Virus record (IMG/VR): IMGVR_UViG_3300047446_000183
Coordinates: 1-39,018 of that record
Direction: 5' to 3' (one strand)
DNA: 39,018 nucleotides
From: a virus
Position numbers and translations under genes: made by a program. Within the stretch, counting starts at the first letter, position 1. Each line of letters opens with the position of its first letter. Below the pieces are notes generated by a model. The model worked only from the letters and a program-made list of their open reading frames with translations, searched no databases and was not told where the DNA came from. Below are positions 2,607 to 36,196 of this stretch, in pieces.

Positions 2607-5414
2607 TCACGCTTGGAAAATCCAGCACTTCACGATGGGTTGCTTGGTGACTACGGCGTTGGAATGCTTGGCCTGGTGAGCACGTACGGCGCTGTCGGTT
2701 GCCTTGTTTGTGTCGAGCAGCTTTCGAGAGCGGGAATCCTTCAGGCGGTCCCGCAATTCGCTTATGTCGGCGACCTTCTGGCGGTGCTCGGCAGCGCACT
2801 TGACGAAGTCGTTGAGGTTGATGGCGATGGTGTTGTCTTTTTTGCTGTGATTGACCACCGGCCCGTCAGCGTCCAGACCCTCAAGGTATTCGTAGACCTC
2901 CCAAAATTCAGCCACTACCGGATGATCCGAACTGATCGAGGATTGACGCTCGATCGCCATGCGGATGATTTGGGTCCGGGTGTGGCTGATTTGTGGCTCG
3001 CTCAGGGGCACGATCAGGCGCAGGCAGTCGAGCAGGGCGAGCAGCTGGGCGTGGTTCTTGTTGATCCGCTCCACACGGATGTAGCCGCGCAGTTTGTTGC
3101 CGCAATGGCCACAGTGATCGTGCTCGTCTTTGAACGGCGTTTCACAGGCAAAGCAATGGCTGTGAAGGGTGCGCAGTTTTGCTTCATAGCCAGGCACGCG
3201 ACTGGCAAACAGCTCCATTACTTCCGACTCTTTGCGTACCGCCTGCAGCAGGAAGTTGCTGAGCTTGGCGCCTTCCAGAGAGTTGAGCAGGTCCGCCGCC
3301 GCGCGGCTTTCAGCCGTGACCGTGGGCCGTACAAAGTGCAGTTTCACGATCCTGGTCATGATCGCCTCGGACGCCACAACCGGGGCGTTCTGGCTGATGG
3401 CGATGGTGGCGCGGAAGGGCGGTTCGTAAGTCTCGTTGCCCGCGGTTTTGACACCCTTGGTCGCGAGCGTGCCGCCGCCGAAGTAGTCCTTCAGTTCGTC
3501 CCATTCGAACGTTTTGGCATGGGCCTTATCGTCGCCACTGCGATCCGATTCCAGCAGTACGACGGGCATGCCGGAGATTTGCCCCATCAGGCGACTGCGG
3601 CCAGCCTTGGTGGATTTGGACGGGTCGAAACCTTCGTATCCCTCGCGGCCCAGCAGTTTCCACAGCAGGGTCAGCAGGGTGGTCTTACCGGCACCGGCCT
3701 CGCCGGTGGCCTCTAGGAATGGGAACGACTGGTAACGGGCGCGGATCTGCTCGGCGAACAGCGAACCGAACCAGAAGGTGAGCGCCACGGTGCCCTGGGC
3801 GCCAAAGCACTGCCAGAGCAAATCCAGCCACTGCGTGTTGTAGTCCTTGGCGTCCTTCTGCAGGGCAATCTTTACGCCTTTCTGCAGGCTCTTGAGCTTC
3901 AGCTTGCCCATCTCGAAGAATTCCTCTTCGTTGATGGTGATGAGCTGGCCGTCGCGGATCGCAATGTCGTTGAACACGTAGCAGCCGTACTCCCGGCTGT
4001 AGCCCACGTAGTCGATGGTCTGAACGGTTTTGATACCGAAAAGCTGGTCTTTCATGATTTTGTCCAACTGTTGCCCACTACCGGTGAACACGGCTCCGGC
4101 ACCCATGCCGAGAAGTCTTTTTTTGAATTCGCTGGCCGCTGCGACCTGGCCACCGGTGAAGGTGTTTTTCACAGAGCCGCCGTCATGGGGGAAGTCGACC
4201 CGGAAGAAGTACCAGGACTCGTCGGTGATTTCGTTGCGCTGGAAATACAGCGCCTTGGGGTAGCAGTTGGCGATCTCGACCACGCAACCGGACATGCGTA
4301 GCGCCTTGGCGCGACGTGCTTTGTCATTCAGTTGCTGGTCTTCGTGGTTGTCGCTGGCATCCAGCGCCTGCATGGCGCTGTTGAATTTCGAGATGTCCAA
4401 CTTCCACCAGTACAGGCGGGAGTCGAAGCCGAAGTGAAACTCTTCGCGCTCGCGCCACTGGTACATGAGCAAGGCTTTTTCCACCGCGCTTTCAGCAATC
4501 AGCAGCGCGCCGTGGTGCTTGGCCTCGTCCAGCTCTTTGTCGATCCGCTGGGTGCGGGCTTCAACGTCGTCCATGAATGCCCAACGCTGATGCAGATCGT
4601 TCCAATCGACCTTGCGCGAATCAGGCTGTGGGATCTGTGCTGCGTCACAGGTGAAGCCAAGGTCTCGTGCCTGGCGGACCCACATGCGGGTGTATTTGTG
4701 CGCACCTGGTTCGTTGTCCAGTGCCCAAACCAGCTTGGGTGTTTTGCCGCCACGCGCAGTGATCAGGGCTTTCAACGACTCTTCTGGATAGGCATTCGAG
4801 GACAGCGCGGCGACAGCGGGTATGCCGTTTTGCACCAAGGCGATGGCATCGAAAATGCCCTCGACGATCCACAGTTCGTTCACCTGCAGCAGATCCACAC
4901 ACGGCGGCACCCACCAGTGGCCCTTGTAACTTTCGCCGGGTTTGAAGCGTGCTTTCTTCTTCCCGAAGCGGTTCGGCTTGTCGATGAGCCGCTCCCAGTA
5001 GCCGCCCTTATCGAGTGGGAAGCGGACGGTGGCCGAGCCAATGTTCAGCTCTCGGTCAAAGTAGTTTTCCTGGGTGTACCAGCCTTCGATCATCCCCACG
5101 TCGAACCCGCGAGCGAAGCTCAGGTAGGCCCTGGCACTCGCTGCAGGTTGATCGTCGGTGGCCGGCGCGCGCTTGCTCCAGTCGTCGAACAGGTCGCTGT
5201 ACAGCTCCTTGACCGGCTCCACGTAGCGGCATTTCTGCTCGCGGCCGCAGCGGATGAACCATGGCTCGTCATACCGCGAGAATAGCCGGCGCTGATTGCA
5301 CTGAGGGCACGTTCCCTTGCGCATGTATTGGGTGCCGGCCATATGTTGCAGACCGTAGTCAGCCTCAAGCCGTTGCAACACATCGGCACGCAGTTGGTGG
5401 TCCATGGTCTTCAC
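2607..5414 (-). CDS. Phage replication protein: zinc-finger/toprim primase fused to a helicase-type ATPase
   Basis: 935 residues, probably the phage primase-helicase. Domains in order: a primase-type zinc finger (Cys36, Cys39, Cys56, Cys62); a toprim fold with VEG (Glu185) and ALDNEPGA (about 231-238) for metal binding; and a P-loop ATPase with GEAGAGKTT near residue 575 followed by VVLLESDR as a Walker B-like strand. Near 750-775 there is a second Cys/His cluster (CFAC, then HDHCGHC) that could bind DNA. The GTG start at 5414 overlaps the upstream stop as GTGA and has GGAG eight bases before it; ATG 5405 is the alternative. P2 uses a rolling-circle protein (gpA) in this role, so the replication module here is of another kind, closer in logic to the P4 alpha protein. 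Confidence 0.88.
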   Translation of the reverse strand: MKTMDHQLRADVLQRLEADYGLQHMAGTQYMRKGTCPQCNQRRLFSRYDEPWFIRCGREQKCRYVEPVKELYSDLFDDWSKRAPATDDQPAASARAYLSFARGFDVGMIEGWYTQENYFDRELNIGSATVRFPLDKGGYWERLIDKPNRFGKKKARFKPGESYKGHWWVPPCVDLLQVNELWIVEGIFDAIALVQNGIPAVAALSSNAYPEESLKALITARGGKTPKLVWALDNEPGAHKYTRMWVRQARDLGFTCDAAQIPQPDSRKVDWNDLHQRWAFMDDVEARTQRIDKELDEAKHHGALLIAESAVEKALLMYQWREREEFHFGFDSRLYWWKLDISKFNSAMQALDASDNHEDQQLNDKARRAKALRMSGCVVEIANCYPKALYFQRNEITDESWYFFRVDFPHDGGSVKNTFTGGQVAAASEFKKRLLGMGAGAVFTGSGQQLDKIMKDQLFGIKTVQTIDYVGYSREYGCYVFNDIAIRDGQLITINEEEFFEMGKLKLKSLQKGVKIALQKDAKDYNTQWLDLLWQCFGAQGTVALTFWFGSLFAEQIRARYQSFPFLEATGEAGAGKTTLLTLLWKLLGREGYEGFDPSKSTKAGRSRLMGQISGMPVVLLESDRSGDDKAHAKTFEWDELKDYFGGGTLATKGVKTAGNETYEPPFRATIAISQNAPVVASEAIMTRIVKLHFVRPTVTAESRAAADLLNSLEGAKLSNFLLQAVRKESEVMELFASRVPGYEAKLRTLHSHCFACETPFKDEHDHCGHCGNKLRGYIRVERINKNHAQLLALLDCLRLIVPLSEPQISHTRTQIIRMAIERQSSISSDHPVVAEFWEVYEYLEGLDADGPVVNHSKKDNTIAINLNDFVKCAAEHRQKVADISELRDRLKDSRSRKLLDTNKATDSAVRAHQAKHSNAVVTKQPIVKCWIFQA

Positions 5415-6391: not shown

Positions 6392-6861
6392 TGGTCGGCC
6401 TCCTTGCTGTGCAGCGAAATCGTGGCGAGTACCTCGGCATGACGAGCGCTTAGGTATTTGCTGTGGGCAGCGAGGATTGCAGCCGCCTCACCCTTCTCAA
6501 TGACGCCATCGGCAAGCGCTTTTTCGATGATCTGATCGACCACCCCTCGCTTGGCAGCAGTGCTGACCGAGCGGCTGTACAACTCGATGTTGTCCAGGGT
6601 TTCAGGGGTGGCGATCGGTACGAACATGCCGCTGTAAAGGGACGCCACATACTCCGGGAAAAAGCTGGTGCCTGCGTCTTGTTCGAGCATATGAATCTGG
6701 TCATCGCTCAATGGACGGCTGCCGGCGTTTTCGTAGGCATGGTTGTCGAACTTCTTGAGTTCATAGCCGAGGCGCGCTGCTGCGCATTCGCGACCACCTG
6801 GATAAGCGCAAACAACTGCTCTCACTACTTGGCGTCTGGTTTCTAGCACTGGGCGTTTCAT
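6388..6861 (-). CDS. YmfL-like phage regulatory protein
   Basis: 157 residues beginning MKRPVLETRRQVVRAVVCAYPGGRECAAARLG, which resembles the YmfL/CII-like regulatory proteins of lambdoid and P2-like prophages. The segment around residues 15-45 is compatible with a helix-turn-helix, and RPLSDDQIHMLEQ follows. ATG 6861 has AAGGAGGG about ten bases upstream; the GTG at 6891 is less likely because it overlaps the preceding gene. It is the second gene after the Cro-like gene, which is where P2-like and lambda-like phages carry a CII-type regulator. Family call from memory of the motif; regulatory role inferred. Confidence 0.72.
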   Translation of the reverse strand: MKRPVLETRRQVVRAVVCAYPGGRECAAARLGYELKKFDNHAYENAGSRPLSDDQIHMLEQDAGTSFFPEYVASLYSGMFVPIATPETLDNIELYSRSVSTAAKRGVVDQIIEKALADGVIEKGEAAAILAAHSKYLSARHAEVLATISLHSKEADQ

Positions 6862-6890: not shown

Positions 6891-7091
6891 CTACTGTGCA
6901 ACTTCGCCGTCTTTGATCCCGAGCAACACTGCTGCCCGGTGTGCCTCGCCTCGACGACCTTTCTTGCGTCCATTGAGTAGATCACTGACCAAATTTTTGT
7001 TCAGACCATGTTCGCGGCTGAACTCCGCAATGCTTTTTCCCCGGCGGTCTAGAGCTGCACGGGCTTGCTCGGGGGTTAGAAGGACATGCAT
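6891..7091 (-). CDS. Cro-like HTH DNA-binding protein (BcepMu gp16-type)
   Basis: 66 residues. A helix-turn-helix is visible as KSIAEFSREHGLNKNLVSDLLNGRKKGRRG, followed by EAHRAAVLLGIKDGEV, the pattern of short phage-associated regulators of the BcepMu gp16 family. It is the first gene of the early leftward operon, divergent from the repressor gene, so it most likely acts as Cro/Cox. ATG 7091 is used; a TTG at 7100 would put the first codons inside the operator repeats. Three tandem 10-bp repeats (7093-7122) lie immediately upstream and are the probable operator. Confidence 0.82.
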   Translation of the reverse strand: MHVLLTPEQARAALDRRGKSIAEFSREHGLNKNLVSDLLNGRKKGRRGEAHRAAVLLGIKDGEVAQ

Positions 7092-7092
7092 A

Positions 7093-7122
7093 GTGTTCAA
7101 CCGTGTTTAATCGTGTTCGACG
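7093..7122. promoter_or_regulatory. Operator candidate: three tandem 10-bp repeats
   Basis: GTGTTCAACC, GTGTTTAATC and GTGTTCGACG follow each other without spacing, directly upstream of the Cro-like start and inside the divergent control region. One repeat per helical turn would place bound proteins on the same face of the DNA. Likely binding site of the repressor, the Cro-like protein, or both. Confidence 0.6.
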
Positions 7123-7175: not shown

Positions 7176-7520
7176 GTGCTCATATTATCTGGAGTAGGTG
7201 AACGCCTACGAGAAGAGAGGGATCGGTTGGGTTTGAACCAGACCGATTTTGGTATCGCTGCGGGCGTTAGCCGAGGAACTCAGAAGGCGTATGAGCTCGA
7301 ATCAAGCTCGCCCGATGTGCGCTACTTGGCGGCGTTGCAGGGCATGGCTGTGGATGTTCATTTTGTGCTCACTGGTAGTCGGCACTCGATTGATTCCGCG
7401 AACCTCAGTGAGGAAGAATCACTGGTGCTCGACCAGTTTCGTTCACTGCCCGAGCACGACCGTGCTTCCGTAAAACGGCTTACGGGCGCACTCGCAGCCA
7501 CTGTGCGAGTGAAGCAATAA
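7176..7520 (+). CDS. Prophage repressor, XRE-type HTH, no peptidase domain
   Basis: Keeps the early operon silent during lysogeny. About 114 residues. HTH: GERLREERDRLGLNQTDFGIAAGVSRGTQKAYELESSSP, then a short linker and a C-terminal helical segment beginning SEEESLVLDQFRSLPEHDRA that is probably the dimerisation part. There is no S24/LexA-like peptidase domain, so RecA-promoted self-cleavage is not possible in the usual way. The start is uncertain: GTG 7176 is used although no good ribosome site precedes it; the long frame back to ATG 7086 would run across the operator and the Cro-like gene. The gene ends before a strong terminator (7601-7625). The LexA-controlled gene downstream shares its C-terminal pattern. 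Confidence 0.85.
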   Translation: MLILSGVGERLREERDRLGLNQTDFGIAAGVSRGTQKAYELESSSPDVRYLAALQGMAVDVHFVLTGSRHSIDSANLSEEESLVLDQFRSLPEHDRASVKRLTGALAATVRVKQ

Positions 7521-7600
7521 CCGGAATAACCAACACGGCGCAGAGCGCCGGCAATGGATGCGATAGTCGTCTCATCGTTCATGCAGAGAAGCAAACAGAA

Positions 7601-7625
7601 GCCCGGCCATTCAGCCGGGCTTTTT
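7601..7625 (+). terminator. Rho-independent terminator after the repressor gene
   Basis: Perfect 7-bp GC stem (GCCCGGC, 7601-7607; GCCGGGC, 7614-7620) with a 6-base loop and five T's. It separates repressor transcription from the LexA-controlled unit. Confidence 0.9.
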
Positions 7626-7654: not shown

Positions 7655-7697
7655 TTGGCAAATTTCGCGCCCCCGTGTACTGTATGCGCATACAGTA
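7655..7697 (+). promoter_or_regulatory. SOS promoter with a perfect LexA box
   Basis: TACTGTATGCGCATACAGTA (7678-7697) is a perfect 20-bp palindrome matching the CTGT-N8-ACAG LexA consensus. TTGGCA (7655-7660) lies exactly 17 bp before TACTGT (7678-7683), which can serve as a -10 element as in the E. coli sulA promoter. LexA would then sit on the -10 region. The next ribosome site and start codon are those of the 59-aa gene at 7718. Confidence 0.88.
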
Positions 7698-7717
7698 CTT
7701 GCGTATGGAGTTTGCGC

Positions 7718-7897
7718 ATGTTGTCGATACGGAAGGCGGAACGCAGTCCCGCCCAAGAACAGCCACATTCACGCCGATACACGTCTCGAAAAGAGCGTGT
7801 GCTGCTGCGATGGTTTCGCCGCTTAGGGAAGGAGGATCGTGCTCATGTCCTTCGTTTTGTGTCGGCAATGGCCATAACAAAACAGCCAACCAAGTGA
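7718..7897 (+). CDS. LexA-controlled small basic protein, candidate antirepressor (Tum-like role)
   Basis: 59 residues, strongly basic, beginning MLSIRKAERSPAQEQPHSRR. GGAG lies seven bases before ATG 7718, 20 bp after a perfect LexA box. Residues 23-55 line up without gaps to the C-terminal part of the repressor (from SEEESLVLDQ): I count 14 identities in 33, including Phe-Arg-x-Leu and Asp-Arg-Ala-x-Val-x-Arg. It has no HTH. I infer that it pairs with the C-terminal segment of the repressor and inactivates it after DNA damage, the job done by Tum in phage 186, though no sequence relation to Tum is claimed. A terminator follows at 7915-7937. The gene is well supported; its function is inference. 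Confidence 0.75.
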   Translation: MLSIRKAERSPAQEQPHSRRYTSRKERVLLRWFRRLGKEDRAHVLRFVSAMAITKQPTK

Positions 7898-7914
7898 CTT
7901 TTCAAAGATGAATG

Positions 7915-7937
7915 AAGGCGCTCGAGGGCGTCTTTTT
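7915..7937 (+). terminator. Terminator after the LexA-controlled gene
   Basis: Stem AAGGCGC (7915-7921) with GCGTCTT (7928-7934, one G-T pair), six-base loop, T-run to 7937. It faces the converging late operon, whose stop codon begins at 7937. Confidence 0.6.
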
Positions 7938-9205
7938 CATGCCTGCGCGTTTTGCATTTTCTTCCATTCTCTGTCGGTCGCACGCTTTGCCGTCTTCTCG
8001 CTGGCGTACAACCACTGAAGCCTCTTGGGCTTGGATTGATCGCCTGCAGTAACCGTTTTCTCTGTCCCAGATTTTTCGTCTCGGTAGTGAGCAACGATGC
8101 CGGTGTAATCGCCTTTGTTTTCTTCCGCCAGTTCGTCCAGCGTGTCCTCCGGCAATTTGCTCTCCAGGTCGAGGCTCATGGTGTAGCCGCTGTCGGCGCT
8201 GAGGCTGTGCTGCACGTTACCGCCATACCAGATGATTTCGTCAATTTCGGCCTTCACGCCCTGGAGCGTATAGGTCAGTTCCGGGATCAGATCCGGCCGC
8301 CCTCGAGCGAGGGTATAGCTCAGTGTGGCGCTGCCGCGTTGCAGGCGGTTGAACTCGGCCCGGGCGGCGCGTAGCGCAGACTGCTGATCGCTGTAGGTAT
8401 GGCGCAGGTCCTTGAGATTTTCCCCGCCGCCGGCAATGGCCTCCTGCTTTTTTGCACTGTTCACATCGTAGTAATAGGCACGCACACCGTCGTAGCTATC
8501 GCGATCGGCTTGCAGGTAGCGGTGTTGGTCGCCATCGATGCGGGTCAGGGTGATATGGGGCAGCTCCATGCCGCTGGCCGTCTTGCCACCGCCGGCCGGC
8601 ATGCACAGCAAGCATCCAGCCTTGACCGTTGCCACCGCATCAAACTCTTCGCCAAGTCGACTGATCAGGTTGGCATCCGACTCATTGGCCTGGTCGAGCT
8701 GCAGAATGGGTAGGCCATCCAGGGCACCGGCAATCGTTGCGGTGAGGCCATTGCTGCTGGCGATGGCGCCAAGCACTTCGCCCAGGGTGGTGTTGCTCCA
8801 GCTGCGTTCGCGTTTGGCCTTGAGTCCTTTGCGCAGATCCGCCGATCGCGCGCGAATGCTGAGCACGTCTGGGGCTCCACTGTGCTCGGTTTCGTCCACC
8901 GTGTAGGTGCCTTTGTCGACCAGACCGGTGTCACTCCAACCCAGCCACAACCGCAGGATCGCGCCCTTTGGAGGAATGGCCAGCAGCCCATCATGGTCAC
9001 TGAGCCTGATGCTGAGTTGGTCGGCCTCAATCCCGCGATTGTCGGTCAGCTCCAGGCTCATCAGCCGCGGACTGATCATCTGCGCTATGTCATTGCCATC
9101 GACGGTCAGACGAAACGCCGGCACCGGATACGTGGCATCACGACGACTCTGCTCCAGGGTGCTTTTCACGTAGCCCGTAACGCGGGCGATCGCGGCATCG
9201 ATCAC
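7937..9205 (-). CDS. D: Late control gene D protein, tail hub (P2 gpD-like)
   Basis: Hub protein of the baseplate-tail junction in contractile tails; P2 gpD has 387 residues, this one 422. The product starts MIDAAIARVTGYVKSTLEQS (GTG start at 9205, overlapping the gpU stop as GTGA) and contains the family segment LMSLELTDNRGIEADQLSIRLSD near residues 45-70. The Lys/Glu-rich end (SEKTAKRATDREWKKMQNAQA) contains a LysM-like KRLQWLYASEKTAKRA piece. An upstream continuous frame to 9568 is an artefact overlapping gpU. Last gene of the FI operon, ending at the converging terminator. Confidence 0.92.
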   Translation of the reverse strand: MIDAAIARVTGYVKSTLEQSRRDATYPVPAFRLTVDGNDIAQMISPRLMSLELTDNRGIEADQLSIRLSDHDGLLAIPPKGAILRLWLGWSDTGLVDKGTYTVDETEHSGAPDVLSIRARSADLRKGLKAKRERSWSNTTLGEVLGAIASSNGLTATIAGALDGLPILQLDQANESDANLISRLGEEFDAVATVKAGCLLCMPAGGGKTASGMELPHITLTRIDGDQHRYLQADRDSYDGVRAYYYDVNSAKKQEAIAGGGENLKDLRHTYSDQQSALRAARAEFNRLQRGSATLSYTLARGRPDLIPELTYTLQGVKAEIDEIIWYGGNVQHSLSADSGYTMSLDLESKLPEDTLDELAEENKGDYTGIVAHYRDEKSGTEKTVTAGDQSKPKRLQWLYASEKTAKRATDREWKKMQNAQA

Positions 9206-24511: not shown

Positions 24512-25519
24512 TTACACCCTCTCGATGTTTTCGACCAGGGCGACCAGGCCGAGGTCTTCGATGACATAGGCCTCGTTCGAGGACTGGTAGTCGGCGACGC
24601 GGTCGTATTCCGGTTCGTCCTTGAGGTGACGACGGCGAGCACTGGCCTGGTAGTAGATGGACAGGTTGCTCAGCGTGGTGATGAGCACGCCGCCCGAGAT
24701 GAAGAACGGCGCGTCCTCGATCGGCAGTCCGCCCAGGCGCCCCTTGTTAACGACTTCGTCGGCGGCGTTTTCTTCCTGGTTGGACGCGGCGCCTTTTTCC
24801 ACGGCCTTGAGCTGCTTCTCGTGCAGCAGAGCGCGGTCCACGATCACCACTAGATCCGGGCGTTTGCGATGCCATGGGTCCAGCATCTGGATGGCATCGA
24901 AGACCAGTCCGTCGAGAGTCTTGTAGTCGCCGGTTGGGCCTACAGTGACCTTGTCTGGAGTGGCGCCTTCATCGAGTACGCGTTCAGGTGCCGCAACACG
25001 GACTTTCTGCAACCAGCCGATGTTGACGTCCTGCAGCAGTGGGTTGGTCGACAGATTGGTGTCGACAGCGACGCTGGTGCCGTTGAAGCCGATCATGATG
25101 CGATCCAACCCTTGGCGTTCAGCGATCGAGCCAGACAACCGCGGTTGGAAGTCGGGGAATTTGGCCCAGGCATCCAGTTTTGCGTATGGGAACGCGGTGT
25201 CGAAGTTGGTTTTTTTGCAGCTGTAGGTGTCTTTGCTCAGGCCGCTGACATCACGCGGCTGACGTGGATTGTTCGCGCTGGTGTTGGTGCGGCCGGCGGT
25301 TGGTCCATTCACGCCCAGCAGGATCGCTTCACCTTCTGCGTCATCGACCGGGATGATGTTGATCTTTTTCAGGAAGCCGCTGGATTCCTGAATCGCGCTT
25401 TCCAGTTTCTGCTGTGGTGTCGGCGCGACGGTGAATTTCACTTCAACCGAGTCGACACCGTTGATCTTGGCTTGCTGGGACAGGTAGCCGTTGAAGGCGA
25501 TTCGAGTTTCTTTACGCAT
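24512..25519 (-). CDS. N: Major capsid protein (P2 gpN-like)
   Basis: 335 residues against about 357 in P2. Begins MRKETRIAFNGYLSQQAKIN and contains SGFLKKINIIPVDDAEGEAI (46-65), YSCKKTNFDTAFPYAKLDAW and GFNGTSVAVDTNLSTNPLLQ, all typical of this HK97-like subunit. It is cleaved at its N-terminus in P2 during head maturation. Three bases separate it from M. Confidence 0.95.
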   Translation of the reverse strand: MRKETRIAFNGYLSQQAKINGVDSVEVKFTVAPTPQQKLESAIQESSGFLKKINIIPVDDAEGEAILLGVNGPTAGRTNTSANNPRQPRDVSGLSKDTYSCKKTNFDTAFPYAKLDAWAKFPDFQPRLSGSIAERQGLDRIMIGFNGTSVAVDTNLSTNPLLQDVNIGWLQKVRVAAPERVLDEGATPDKVTVGPTGDYKTLDGLVFDAIQMLDPWHRKRPDLVVIVDRALLHEKQLKAVEKGAASNQEENAADEVVNKGRLGGLPIEDAPFFISGGVLITTLSNLSIYYQASARRRHLKDEPEYDRVADYQSSNEAYVIEDLGLVALVENIERV

Positions 25520-31292: not shown

Positions 31293-32123
31293 CTAAGGTT
31301 CTGAGTATCGTTCAAACACCCAGCATTTCATGCTCTTGCCGGACAAGCGACTGTGAACTGTACGGTTTTTATGCAGACAGCGCGGCGAATGGCTTTGCCA
31401 GAGGGCCTGTCGCAGTGCGCTATCGAAGCGCAGAGGCTGACCATGATCGAGCAGTTGGCTGGCTAATTCCCGCAGATTGAGGGCCAGCAAGTTGCTGGCT
31501 GTCGCGTGGTTGTATGCAACGCCCTTACCGTCGAGGAAAGCTAGCGCTTCCCAAAATACTTTCAATATATCCGGAGCCTTGGCGGCCGAGCGTCCAAGGC
31601 TTTCGAGTTCCGGTGTAGGCAGCCCCATCGCACGCGACACCTCATCGAGCTGCTGATAAATGACCTCGCGCAGACCAGCGTCGCGGGTGCGGTGTAGCTC
31701 TTTGGCCAGAGCTAGTCGATGGCGTGATTGGGCGATGCGCTGTGTGACGGGCGGAGCTGCAAGGCGCTGCCCCTCAAAGTAACTATCCACGAGCATGTCC
31801 TGCACCTGCCAAGACAGTTCATCGGTGAAAGATTTCACCAACAGCAGATATCCGCGTTGGGTCAACAGCAACACGTCTTCATGAGACTTATTAGAAATGG
31901 CATCTGGTTTGTGCGTCCGGAAATCGGACGCACAAATTTTAAAAAAGTGCTTTCCCTCAATGAATCGCTCACGGTTCGCATTCAAGTTGCGGCGTGCAGT
32001 ACCGTCAGGTCGTCGGTGCACCTGGTCCACCATGGTAAGAGTCACTACACGCTCGCCTTGGTGCTCGATGATCGTTAGATCGCTGTCGGCGATGCTGATC
32101 ACCTGACGAATTGCTGAAATCAT
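31293..32123 (-). CDS. ORF6N-domain protein, putative phage antirepressor type
   Basis: 276 residues. The N-terminal domain (about 5-95) has the ORF6N pattern: VISIADSDLTIIEHQGERVV, DGTARRNLNANRERFIEGKH, FFKICASDFRTHKPDA and a later VLLLTQRGYLLLVKSFTDEL. ORF6N domains are found in phage regulators and antirepressors (KilA-N-like). The C-terminal part (RTRDAGLREVIYQQLDEVSR...) is helical and unlike known C-terminal domains. ATG 32123 has GGGAG upstream and overlaps the preceding gene. A perfect inverted repeat (31908-31936) lies within the coding region. Target unknown. Confidence 0.8.
   Translation of the reverse strand: MISAIRQVISIADSDLTIIEHQGERVVTLTMVDQVHRRPDGTARRNLNANRERFIEGKHFFKICASDFRTHKPDAISNKSHEDVLLLTQRGYLLLVKSFTDELSWQVQDMLVDSYFEGQRLAAPPVTQRIAQSRHRLALAKELHRTRDAGLREVIYQQLDEVSRAMGLPTPELESLGRSAAKAPDILKVFWEALAFLDGKGVAYNHATASNLLALNLRELASQLLDHGQPLRFDSALRQALWQSHSPRCLHKNRTVHSRLSGKSMKCWVFERYSEP
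31908..31936. repeat. 29-bp palindrome, copy 1 (within the ORF6N gene)
   Basis: TTTGTGCGTCCG (31908-31919) and CGGACGCACAAA (31925-31936) pair perfectly around five bases. The outer ends are shared with a second 29-bp palindrome at 32624-32652. Confidence 0.75.
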
Positions 32124-32305
32124 AATTTTGCTCCCTGCTCCATGGCTGAGCACAGGGCAAGTGCCTGCGCCGCACGGCGGATAAAGCCCTGGTCGATCTG
32201 GTTGAGCTGGCGATAGTACTGCAACAACGCCTGTTCATCAGCGGTATGCAGCAACGTGGACGGGGAAAAATTAACGAGCGGTCTACCAGTGGTGCGCTTT
32301 GACAT
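32120..32305 (-). CDS. Small hypothetical protein upstream of the ORF6N gene, 61 aa
   Basis: Begins MSKRTTGRPLVNFSPSTLLH; then ADEQALLQYYRQLNQIDQGF and IRRAAQALALCSAMEQGAKL, helical. No known family. ATGA overlap with the ORF6N start makes them a two-gene operon. ATG 32305 has only a weak ribosome site. A terminator for leftward transcripts (32461-32483) lies upstream, so a promoter should be between 32306 and 32460. Confidence 0.65.
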   Translation of the reverse strand: MSKRTTGRPLVNFSPSTLLHTADEQALLQYYRQLNQIDQGFIRRAAQALALCSAMEQGAKL

Positions 32306-34769: not shown

Positions 34770-36131
34770 CTATTTTTTCCATCCACTTATGATTTTACTG
34801 GTGTCGATCATACTAAAAACCCATTCGTTTCCGATTTTTGTTTTTTCAAAAAGTTTAAGGTCGACGAGGCCATTAAGTACGTTTGCGGCAGTGTTATACG
34901 CGCAGCCTAAGTTTTCCTTTACGTTTGTGATGGTAAATTCCTGCGCGTTTCCAGAACGGGCTACATTAAAGACTACTCTCTGTTTCTCTGAGAGTTTTCC
35001 GTATAGACCGGATTGGTACAGAAAAGCGTTAAATTTTTCCATTCCTTCAACGGTTGCTTGGTATGTGGCCCTGAATTGGCCTATTGCTCTGGCGATTACC
35101 CTGCACTGGTAATCGATAAAATATGTGAGGTCCATGTCGTCGGTTTCAGTGTAGAGGTAACTCTTTCCGTACTGAATTGGCGCTATCTTAAGTAGCGTAC
35201 TGATAGCGATATATCTGAATGCGCCGAACCCGCTTTTGAATAAATACCAGTAAAACAATGATCTAGCGACCCTTCCATTTCCATCATTAAATGGGTGTTC
35301 ATATCCTATAATAAAATGGATTATGATTGCTTTCACCAAGGGGTGAATATAGCTTTGACTTTTTATGTCTGTATGGTTGGTGTTGACCCAATCGATTATT
35401 AGTTTCAGCCGGTTCTCTAGGTTTTTAGCAGGTGGCGGCTGATGAACTATTTCGCCATTACCATCTACAACAACGACCTTGTCATCATTTCTAAAATCTC
35501 CAGGCCGATATACTTCATCATTAATGCCTTCTACTCCTACTTGATGTAGGTCAGAAATTATATCCAAAGTAAGATCGTGATCCCTGAAATCCCAAGCATG
35601 ATTCATCATTTTGAAATTGCCGATGATCATTTTTTCATCAGGTGTTCTTGGTCCCTTCTTTCTTTTCAAAAGGTCCTTTGCAGCTTTGGTGGTAGTAGCA
35701 GCTCCTTCAAGTTGACTGCTGCTAATGGCCTCATCTTCAATCAAGTCGTTCAATAGGTACTGTAAATGCTTCGATTCCCCTATCTTAGAACACATCCATT
35801 CAAGGGCGGCCGTAGTCGTATGCTGGTCACAGGCTGAAATGGCGATGTGCATGGTTGGGGTATACAGAAAGCTGCATGGTTTCGAAGGCTCGCCTAGCCG
35901 CAAAACGTGCGTGAGCTGTCTCAATCTTGCTTGCTTCACTACAGACCAAGCGAGGGCCGGATCCAAGTCGCTTGGGATCCTAAATCTAAGCTTGTCGAAA
36001 TGAAGATAACGGCCTTTCGAGTCAACGCAGTGGTTCAGCGCCAGGTATGCGCCGGCTTTCTCAGGGTATTTTTCAATGATGTCTTTGAAAACATTCAGAT
36101 TGGTAGGGGGTGGAGACTTAATAATGCTCAT
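34770..36131 (-). CDS. Fic-family AMP-transferase with its own inhibitory motif
   Basis: 453 residues. Fic enzymes transfer AMP from ATP to hydroxyl groups of target proteins. Here: an N-terminal Fic_N-type domain (GRYLHFDKLRFRIPSDLDPA, 40-59), the inhibitory helix motif SSSQLEG (137-143, S-x-x-x-E-G with Glu142), and the catalytic motif HPFNDGNGRVAR (279-290, His279). The C-terminal part (RVVFNVARSGNAQEFTITNV...) is a winged helix. This is the class II layout, in which the inhibitory helix lies before the Fic core. ATG 36131 has AGGA eight bases upstream. Two 27-bp palindromes cover the start region, pointing to autoregulation by the winged helix (inference). The gene is AT-rich and probably acquired. 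Confidence 0.92.
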   Translation of the reverse strand: MSIIKSPPPTNLNVFKDIIEKYPEKAGAYLALNHCVDSKGRYLHFDKLRFRIPSDLDPALAWSVVKQARLRQLTHVLRLGEPSKPCSFLYTPTMHIAISACDQHTTTAALEWMCSKIGESKHLQYLLNDLIEDEAISSSQLEGAATTTKAAKDLLKRKKGPRTPDEKMIIGNFKMMNHAWDFRDHDLTLDIISDLHQVGVEGINDEVYRPGDFRNDDKVVVVDGNGEIVHQPPPAKNLENRLKLIIDWVNTNHTDIKSQSYIHPLVKAIIIHFIIGYEHPFNDGNGRVARSLFYWYLFKSGFGAFRYIAISTLLKIAPIQYGKSYLYTETDDMDLTYFIDYQCRVIARAIGQFRATYQATVEGMEKFNAFLYQSGLYGKLSEKQRVVFNVARSGNAQEFTITNVKENLGCAYNTAANVLNGLVDLKLFEKTKIGNEWVFSMIDTSKIISGWKK

Positions 36132-36196
36132 TTCAAAATTCCTAAAATTGAAATGAGCATAGAGCATTCCATTTCAAAATTCCACAAAATGAAATG
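36129..36196. promoter_or_regulatory. Two tandem 27-bp palindromic operators upstream of fic
   Basis: CATTTCA-N13-TGAAATG occurs at 36129-36155 and again at 36170-36196, centres 41 bp (about four helical turns) apart. The first includes the start codon. The inner bases are also alike (AAAATTCC). Probable binding sites of the Fic C-terminal winged helix or of a phage regulator. Confidence 0.7.

Follow-up and report, generated by a model that had tools for sequence, protein, structure and literature searches.

Both elements of the switch considered here are already known from other systems, namely antirepressors under LexA control (Tum, AntC, and GfoA/GftA; PMC3121763) and antirepression by a detached repressor tail (SinI). 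In the P2-like phage 186, the repressor is not cleaved, and the prophage has a LexA-controlled antirepressor, Tum (PMC7708051, PMC3121763); GfoA/GftA of the Gifsy phages and AntC of N15 are small antirepressors, likewise under LexA control, directed at repressors that cannot be cleaved (PMC3121763). SinI, 57 aa long and in effect SinR without the DNA-binding part, breaks the SinR tetramer (PMC5864091, PMC6123443). In phage 186, artificial overexpression of the C-terminal domain of the repressor (CI-CTD) leads to sequestration of the repressor and to prophage induction (PMC7708051). A further group comprises the TF-smORF modules and Qtip (phages VP882, 72, 63, and Apop), in which a small protein encoded close to the switch acts as a non-proteolytic inactivator of the repressor (PMC10432266).

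The window, i.e., the whole stretch of DNA that was analyzed, is the 39,018-base IMG/VR virus record IMGVR_UViG_3300047446_000183. It encodes an integrase, a Toprim primase, Ogr, a CII-like protein, a cox-like HTH protein, and P2-type late genes. Among annotated phages, it is closest to Pseudomonas phages such as Sirocco and Dobby (Peduoviridae, Citexvirus), which are ~68% identical to it in DNA sequence across the early region. A Fic/DOC-family protein is encoded on the minus strand toward the right end of the record (34770-36167). In the switch region, a 114-aa prophage repressor of the XRE/HTH type with a GTG start (7176-7520, plus strand) is divergent from an early operon whose first gene encodes the cox-like HTH protein (6891-7100, minus). 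A family-model search matched the repressor to HTH models only, in agreement with the preliminary description that it lacks a peptidase domain; it is therefore incapable of RecA-driven self-cleavage. A terminator hairpin followed by a T-run lies 3' of the repressor gene (7597-7624, plus; -19.7 kcal/mol, z -5.35). Behind it, the sequence contains a promoter with the -35 hexamer TTGGCA (7655-7660, plus) and, 17 bp further on, the -10 hexamer TACTGT (7678-7683, plus), both kept in relatives. The -10 hexamer falls within a LexA box that is a perfect 20-bp palindrome, TACTGTATGCGCATACAGTA (7678-7697, not assigned to a strand). A GGAG ribosome-binding site (7707-7710, plus) stands 7 nt ahead of the ATG of a 59-codon gene (7718-7897, plus), the product of which (P0001, 59 aa) is the candidate SOS-controlled antirepressor. 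This gene is followed by a terminator-like hairpin that is convergent with gpD (7908-7940, plus; -14.8 kcal/mol, z -2.58). Upon re-examination of the sequence, all of the coordinates and motifs given for 7655-7897 in the preliminary description were correct, including the promoter with the palindrome over its -10 region, the ribosome-binding site, and the 59-codon gene. Its terminator behind the repressor was likewise borne out, and the evidence for the small gene's own terminator is weaker.

The window thus shares with the LexA-controlled antirepressor class (Tum, AntC, GfoA/GftA) a LexA box over the promoter and a repressor without a self-cleaving peptidase (114 aa, HTH plus hairpin). Tum differs in being a 146-aa protein with a DinI-like half, and no description presents it as a copy of its own repressor. 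GfoA/GftA and AntC, as presented in the available part of PMC3121763, show no sign of copying their own repressors either, and the Gifsy antirepressor genes lie outside the immunity region, whereas the window gene is beside its repressor.

The small protein resembles the C-terminal tail of the neighboring repressor. Its residues 23-55 align ungapped to repressor residues 78-110 with exactly the 14 identities in 33 positions that had been counted in the preliminary description. The stretches taken as homologous, each predicted to form a hairpin, are residues 78-109 of the repressor (7407-7502, plus), a two-helix hairpin that is the part copied by the small protein, and residues 23-54 of the small protein (7784-7879, plus). 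The best ungapped segment score of 59 was reached by 0 of 2000 shuffled sequences, and 14 identities in 33 were reached by none of 500. A BLASTP comparison of the small protein with the repressor as single sequences gave no match, and the proof of homology consequently rests on the shuffles and on profiles. Profile-profile alignment of 14 repressors with 15 tail-only proteins using hhalign gave E=1.6e-10 with a probability of 96.9% over 45 columns, a value that is somewhat favorable because the tail-only set was partly picked by likeness to P0001. Free of this bias is a profile made from repressors only, which, when run through whole records, additionally picked out the tail-only ORF in 12/16 and 18/20 other records (30/36 in total), as well as in the window (7778-7882, E=3.7e-5). 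By these profile methods, the alignment lies beyond chance. MAFFT placed the small proteins onto the repressor tail, and the motif positions E, R, and R common to the tails are invariant or nearly so.

Among existing families, phrog_23693, a 59-aa phage family, covers the small protein (E=7.9e-5, residues 21-56 of 59) and, with a weak score, also the tail of the repressor (E=0.033, residues 76-108), and it is matched by 9 of the 15 tail-only proteins. The Pfam model for SinI was not matched, and no Pfam family was matched by more than one of the 15 members. An identity of the small protein as a Tum/DinI relative or a toxin was dropped, as it had no Pfam or NCBIfam match and only that to phrog_23693. 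The small gene is real, given a pN/pS of 0.18 in nine relatives; the value for the tail is about 0.09, and the tail is more conserved than the N-terminus. At helix 1 of the hairpin, the two partners are oppositely charged in 20 SOS pairs, with the repressor acidic (mean -2.5) and the small protein basic (mean +2.65). The small protein is the more basic partner in 43 of the 44 distinct pairs, with L024 as the one exception, and at several positions a polar or acidic residue in the repressor stands against a hydrophobic or basic one in the small protein. Judged from sequence, this opposition would fit a preferred mixed pairing. Cognate tails are slightly more alike than non-cognate tails (permutation p=0.019, not corrected for relatedness), a weak sign that cognate tails match best.

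The promoter offers an independent route to the same genes. The LexA box at 7678-7697 is the only match in the window with fewer than three mismatches to CTGTATNNNNATACAG. When 2.9 million viral contigs from IMG/VR were scanned for TTGGCA-N15-19-ACTGTATNNNNATACAGT without any protein information, 38 sites were returned, 28 of which are immediately followed by a gene that has a ribosome-binding site, and all but one of these 28 genes encode the tail-only type (57-60 aa). Three of the 27 are cut by a contig or locus end or are frame-broken; the 24 complete proteins match an HMM of repressor tails only with E-values from 2e-12 to 4e-8 (Z=1000). The promoter-linked tail-only proteins fall into five sequence clusters (window-like, L053-like, L192-like, L220, and L024). 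A LexA box is located at the tail gene in 13/13 SOS-type records checked, as the sole box in five and as one of two in eight. The second box, found in the L053 and L192 lineages, sits some 570 bp ahead of the tail gene and precedes another gene (MMKRYKPAAHYEVHKPGHPAPIGYVRRG...), as at about 1150-1690 of L053 (reverse strand) and 25467-25482 of G001. LexA boxes were also present in two non-SOS records, in one before a umuD-like gene followed by umuC and in the other before a 90-aa ORF, and neither box serves the tail gene. As to the co-occurrence of LexA box and repressor raised in the preliminary description, the box is kept at the same place in 8/8 close relatives and is present across the five clusters, and a repressor of the same type is encoded upstream of the tail gene in every record where this could be checked; a LexA box at every tail-only gene, in contrast, did not hold, as several relatives have no box or a different promoter. 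A general LexA-promoter scan also returned other recurrent SOS-controlled phage proteins of 58-86 aa without the tail motif (e.g., MVGEHFRRTQQKWACVQFIAEVSL... and MQDLFFETIALQRIALFTKLV...), which are possibly further antirepressors.

Tail-only relatives of the small protein were found in IMG/VR records, across many P2-like phages. Searching annotated phages with the small protein by tblastn gave chance matches only, and two scans of bacterial genomes identified no relatives. The distance from the repressor to the tail gene is about 0.2-0.9 kb in the window lineage and about 0.1-4.1 kb overall. In some relatives of the window lineage, the gap is widened from ~0.2 to ~0.9 kb by an extra gene between the repressor and the LexA promoter, encoding a ~170-aa predicted membrane-type protein (L012, from 5456). 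In the L028, L025, L026, and L050 types, the tail-only gene lies about 80-110 nt behind the repressor without a LexA box. Its product may therefore accompany the repressor in the lysogen, an arrangement that would not fit a simple off/on antirepressor in these types. In the L016, L017, and L019-L023 types, the tail-only gene is served by a different promoter and is frequently preceded by an HTH-only paralogue of the repressor. As LexA control of tail-only genes is not universal, the tail protein may tune rather than only switch, and in both groups of non-SOS types the protein may be present in the lysogen and may have a modulatory role.

The HTH-only paralogue, which has no tail, is encoded between the repressor and the tail-only gene in L016, L017, L020-L022, G001, G021-G028, and G031-G034, and such phages hold a whole repressor, a head alone, and a tail alone; in L015 and L018 the paralogue is present and a tail-only gene was not found. 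At the non-SOS tail-only genes, a conserved promoter-like stretch without a LexA box, TTGGGATTCTGAAA...TTATGGTCAG, is located at 5910-6040 of L017 and at the same place in L020-L023. The L017-type relatives with an HTH-only gene could fit the TF-smORF modules. Those modules and Qtip differ from the SOS-type switch in being SOS-independent and driven by a transcription factor, with small proteins that have no homologues, and the window itself has a LexA promoter and no HTH-only neighbor gene. In the Citexvirus phages, a 38-aa hypothetical protein is annotated behind the repressor (L048, Sirocco, 6652-6768; L188, Dobby, 3444-3560). It ends like the second helix of the tail (...MSEQDQLDLLRLACALRGH), and on this resemblance it may be a shortened member of the tail-only family.

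The repressor has 41 relatives in IMG/VR, and an AlphaFold2 model built on 28 aligned repressors predicts five HTH helices and a C-terminal hairpin with helices at 79-90 and 93-113 (mean pLDDT 86). The small protein was modeled in a linked chain in which it was joined to the L010 repressor through natural intergenic DNA, with an alignment of three natural in-frame loci in which stops were read as Gly. In this chain it is predicted to adopt the same hairpin as the repressor tail (pLDDT about 80); the overall pTM was 0.37, and the output carried no contact data. The top Foldseek matches of the repressor model include P22 c2 and SinR of the SinR/SinI complex (1b0n, 105 columns), as well as 9iaq and 9sf2, phage repressor structures that come from studies of the small antirepressor AimX. 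These matches of a predicted model to SinR and phage repressors, which have E-values between 0.003 and 0.06 and a TM of about 0.5 over the full length, are suggestive, not decisive. No solved structure was found that matches a profile of the tail-only proteins.

The resemblance to SinI/SinR of Bacillus subtilis (PDB 1b0n) extends from architecture to placement. There, a hairpin-only protein is encoded beside an XRE repressor of ~111-113 aa (PMC5864091, PMC6123443); in the window, the small protein is, by its predicted fold, the C-terminal helical hairpin of the repressor without a DNA-binding domain, and its gene lies near that of the repressor. The two systems differ in their control, as the window switch is that of LexA and a prophage and not that of the regulators of sporulation and biofilm formation. 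The 186 CI-CTD is similarly a repressor fragment that has no DNA-binding domain and induces the prophage (PMC7708051); it is a laboratory construct, whereas the window phage would encode a separate, diverged fragment gene under LexA.

We consider it reasonably likely that the 59-aa protein is an SOS-switched, SinI-like antirepressor, a decoy dimerization tail that pairs with the repressor. In the lysogen, LexA would keep the small gene off. Upon DNA damage, LexA would be removed and the small protein made, which would then pair with the repressor by way of the hairpin that ordinarily joins two repressors. Such mixed pairs would have at most one DNA-binding head, cooperative operator binding would be lost, and the divergent early operon, beginning with the cox-like gene, would be released. 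Decoy pairing would in this way replace RecA-driven self-cleavage. The mixed-dimer mechanism is plausible in light of the predicted hairpin, the opposite charge at helix 1, and the precedents of SinI/SinR and of induction by the 186 CI-CTD. Alternatively, the hairpin might mediate self-pairing or engage a different partner.

The genes that lack a LexA box bear on whether the protein antagonizes the repressor or assists it. As a modulator or co-repressor, the tail-only protein would bind and tune the repressor, for example by stabilizing mixed assemblies or limiting repressor excess, with SOS control in this lineage adjusting only when lysogeny is re-established or left. In relatives without a box, the gene that immediately follows the repressor is probably on one transcript with it, and small co-repressors or modulators are known, such as Lxc of P1 and MOR of TP901-1 (PMC11323111). 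A repressor helper induced by DNA damage would, however, oppose induction, and in the SOS clusters the tail gene has a promoter of its own and is set apart from the repressor by a terminator or by intervening genes. Furthermore, SinI shares an operon with its repressor and is yet its antagonist, so that the placement of the non-SOS genes does not contradict an antagonistic role. We regard a modulator as unlikely.

The pairing of each repressor with its own tail-only gene nearby, within about 0.1-4.1 kb, together with the slightly greater similarity of cognate tails, argues that the neighboring repressor is the target. The protein might instead act mainly on another tail-bearing target, either the repressor of another phage, co-resident or superinfecting, or an HTH-only or tail protein of the same family, since the tail motif is common to many repressors of the same type, antirepressors can act across phages (PMC3121763), and the window has a second tail-only ORF (32120-32305). 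This seems to us quite improbable. A still different account would have an SOS gene unrelated to the repressor, such as a cell-division, repair, or host-takeover factor, with the likeness of the hairpins reflecting a generic helical pairing module. Short helical hairpins are indeed common, and single-sequence BLASTP finds no match; the profile evidence obtained from repressors alone, the shared motif positions, the constant location by the repressor, and the conservation of the tail over the N-terminus nevertheless render such an account highly improbable.

The second ORF encodes 61 aa on the minus strand and scores E=4.4e-5 with the repressor profile and E=1.3e-10 with the tail profile. Its stop codon overlaps with the start of a gene (31293-32123) whose product has an ORF6N domain and is matched by PHROG anti-repressor families. 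The window may even have, ahead of this anti-repressor-like ORF6N gene, a second tail of this kind. No close relative of this ORF was found in IMG/VR; its counterpart is a degenerate tail-like stretch in L254 and a fusion in L253.

Returning to the tail family as a whole, we tentatively entertain that these widespread detached tails serve P2-like phages as an exchangeable output of their lysogeny switch, wired to LexA, to an HTH-only factor with its own promoter, or to the repressor operon, such that the induction cue would be changed by the promoter alone. Induction by a mimic of the repressor tail had been put forward as new in the preliminary description. As a principle it is not, given SinI and the artificial 186 CI-CTD; for SOS induction it is, within the literature searched (mostly outside subscription journals), in which no natural repressor-tail fragment was found as the SOS trigger of P2-like prophages. 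If the small protein is indeed a decoy of the repressor tail, SOS induction of many P2-like prophages would depend on a naturally occurring dominant-negative repressor fragment instead of repressor cleavage or an unrelated antirepressor, and the logic of SinI/SinR would be linked to prophage induction in Gram-negative phages. The signature of a repressor-tail microprotein and its promoter would then predict the induction cue of a prophage, and the protein would provide a small, specific inducer for lysogens.
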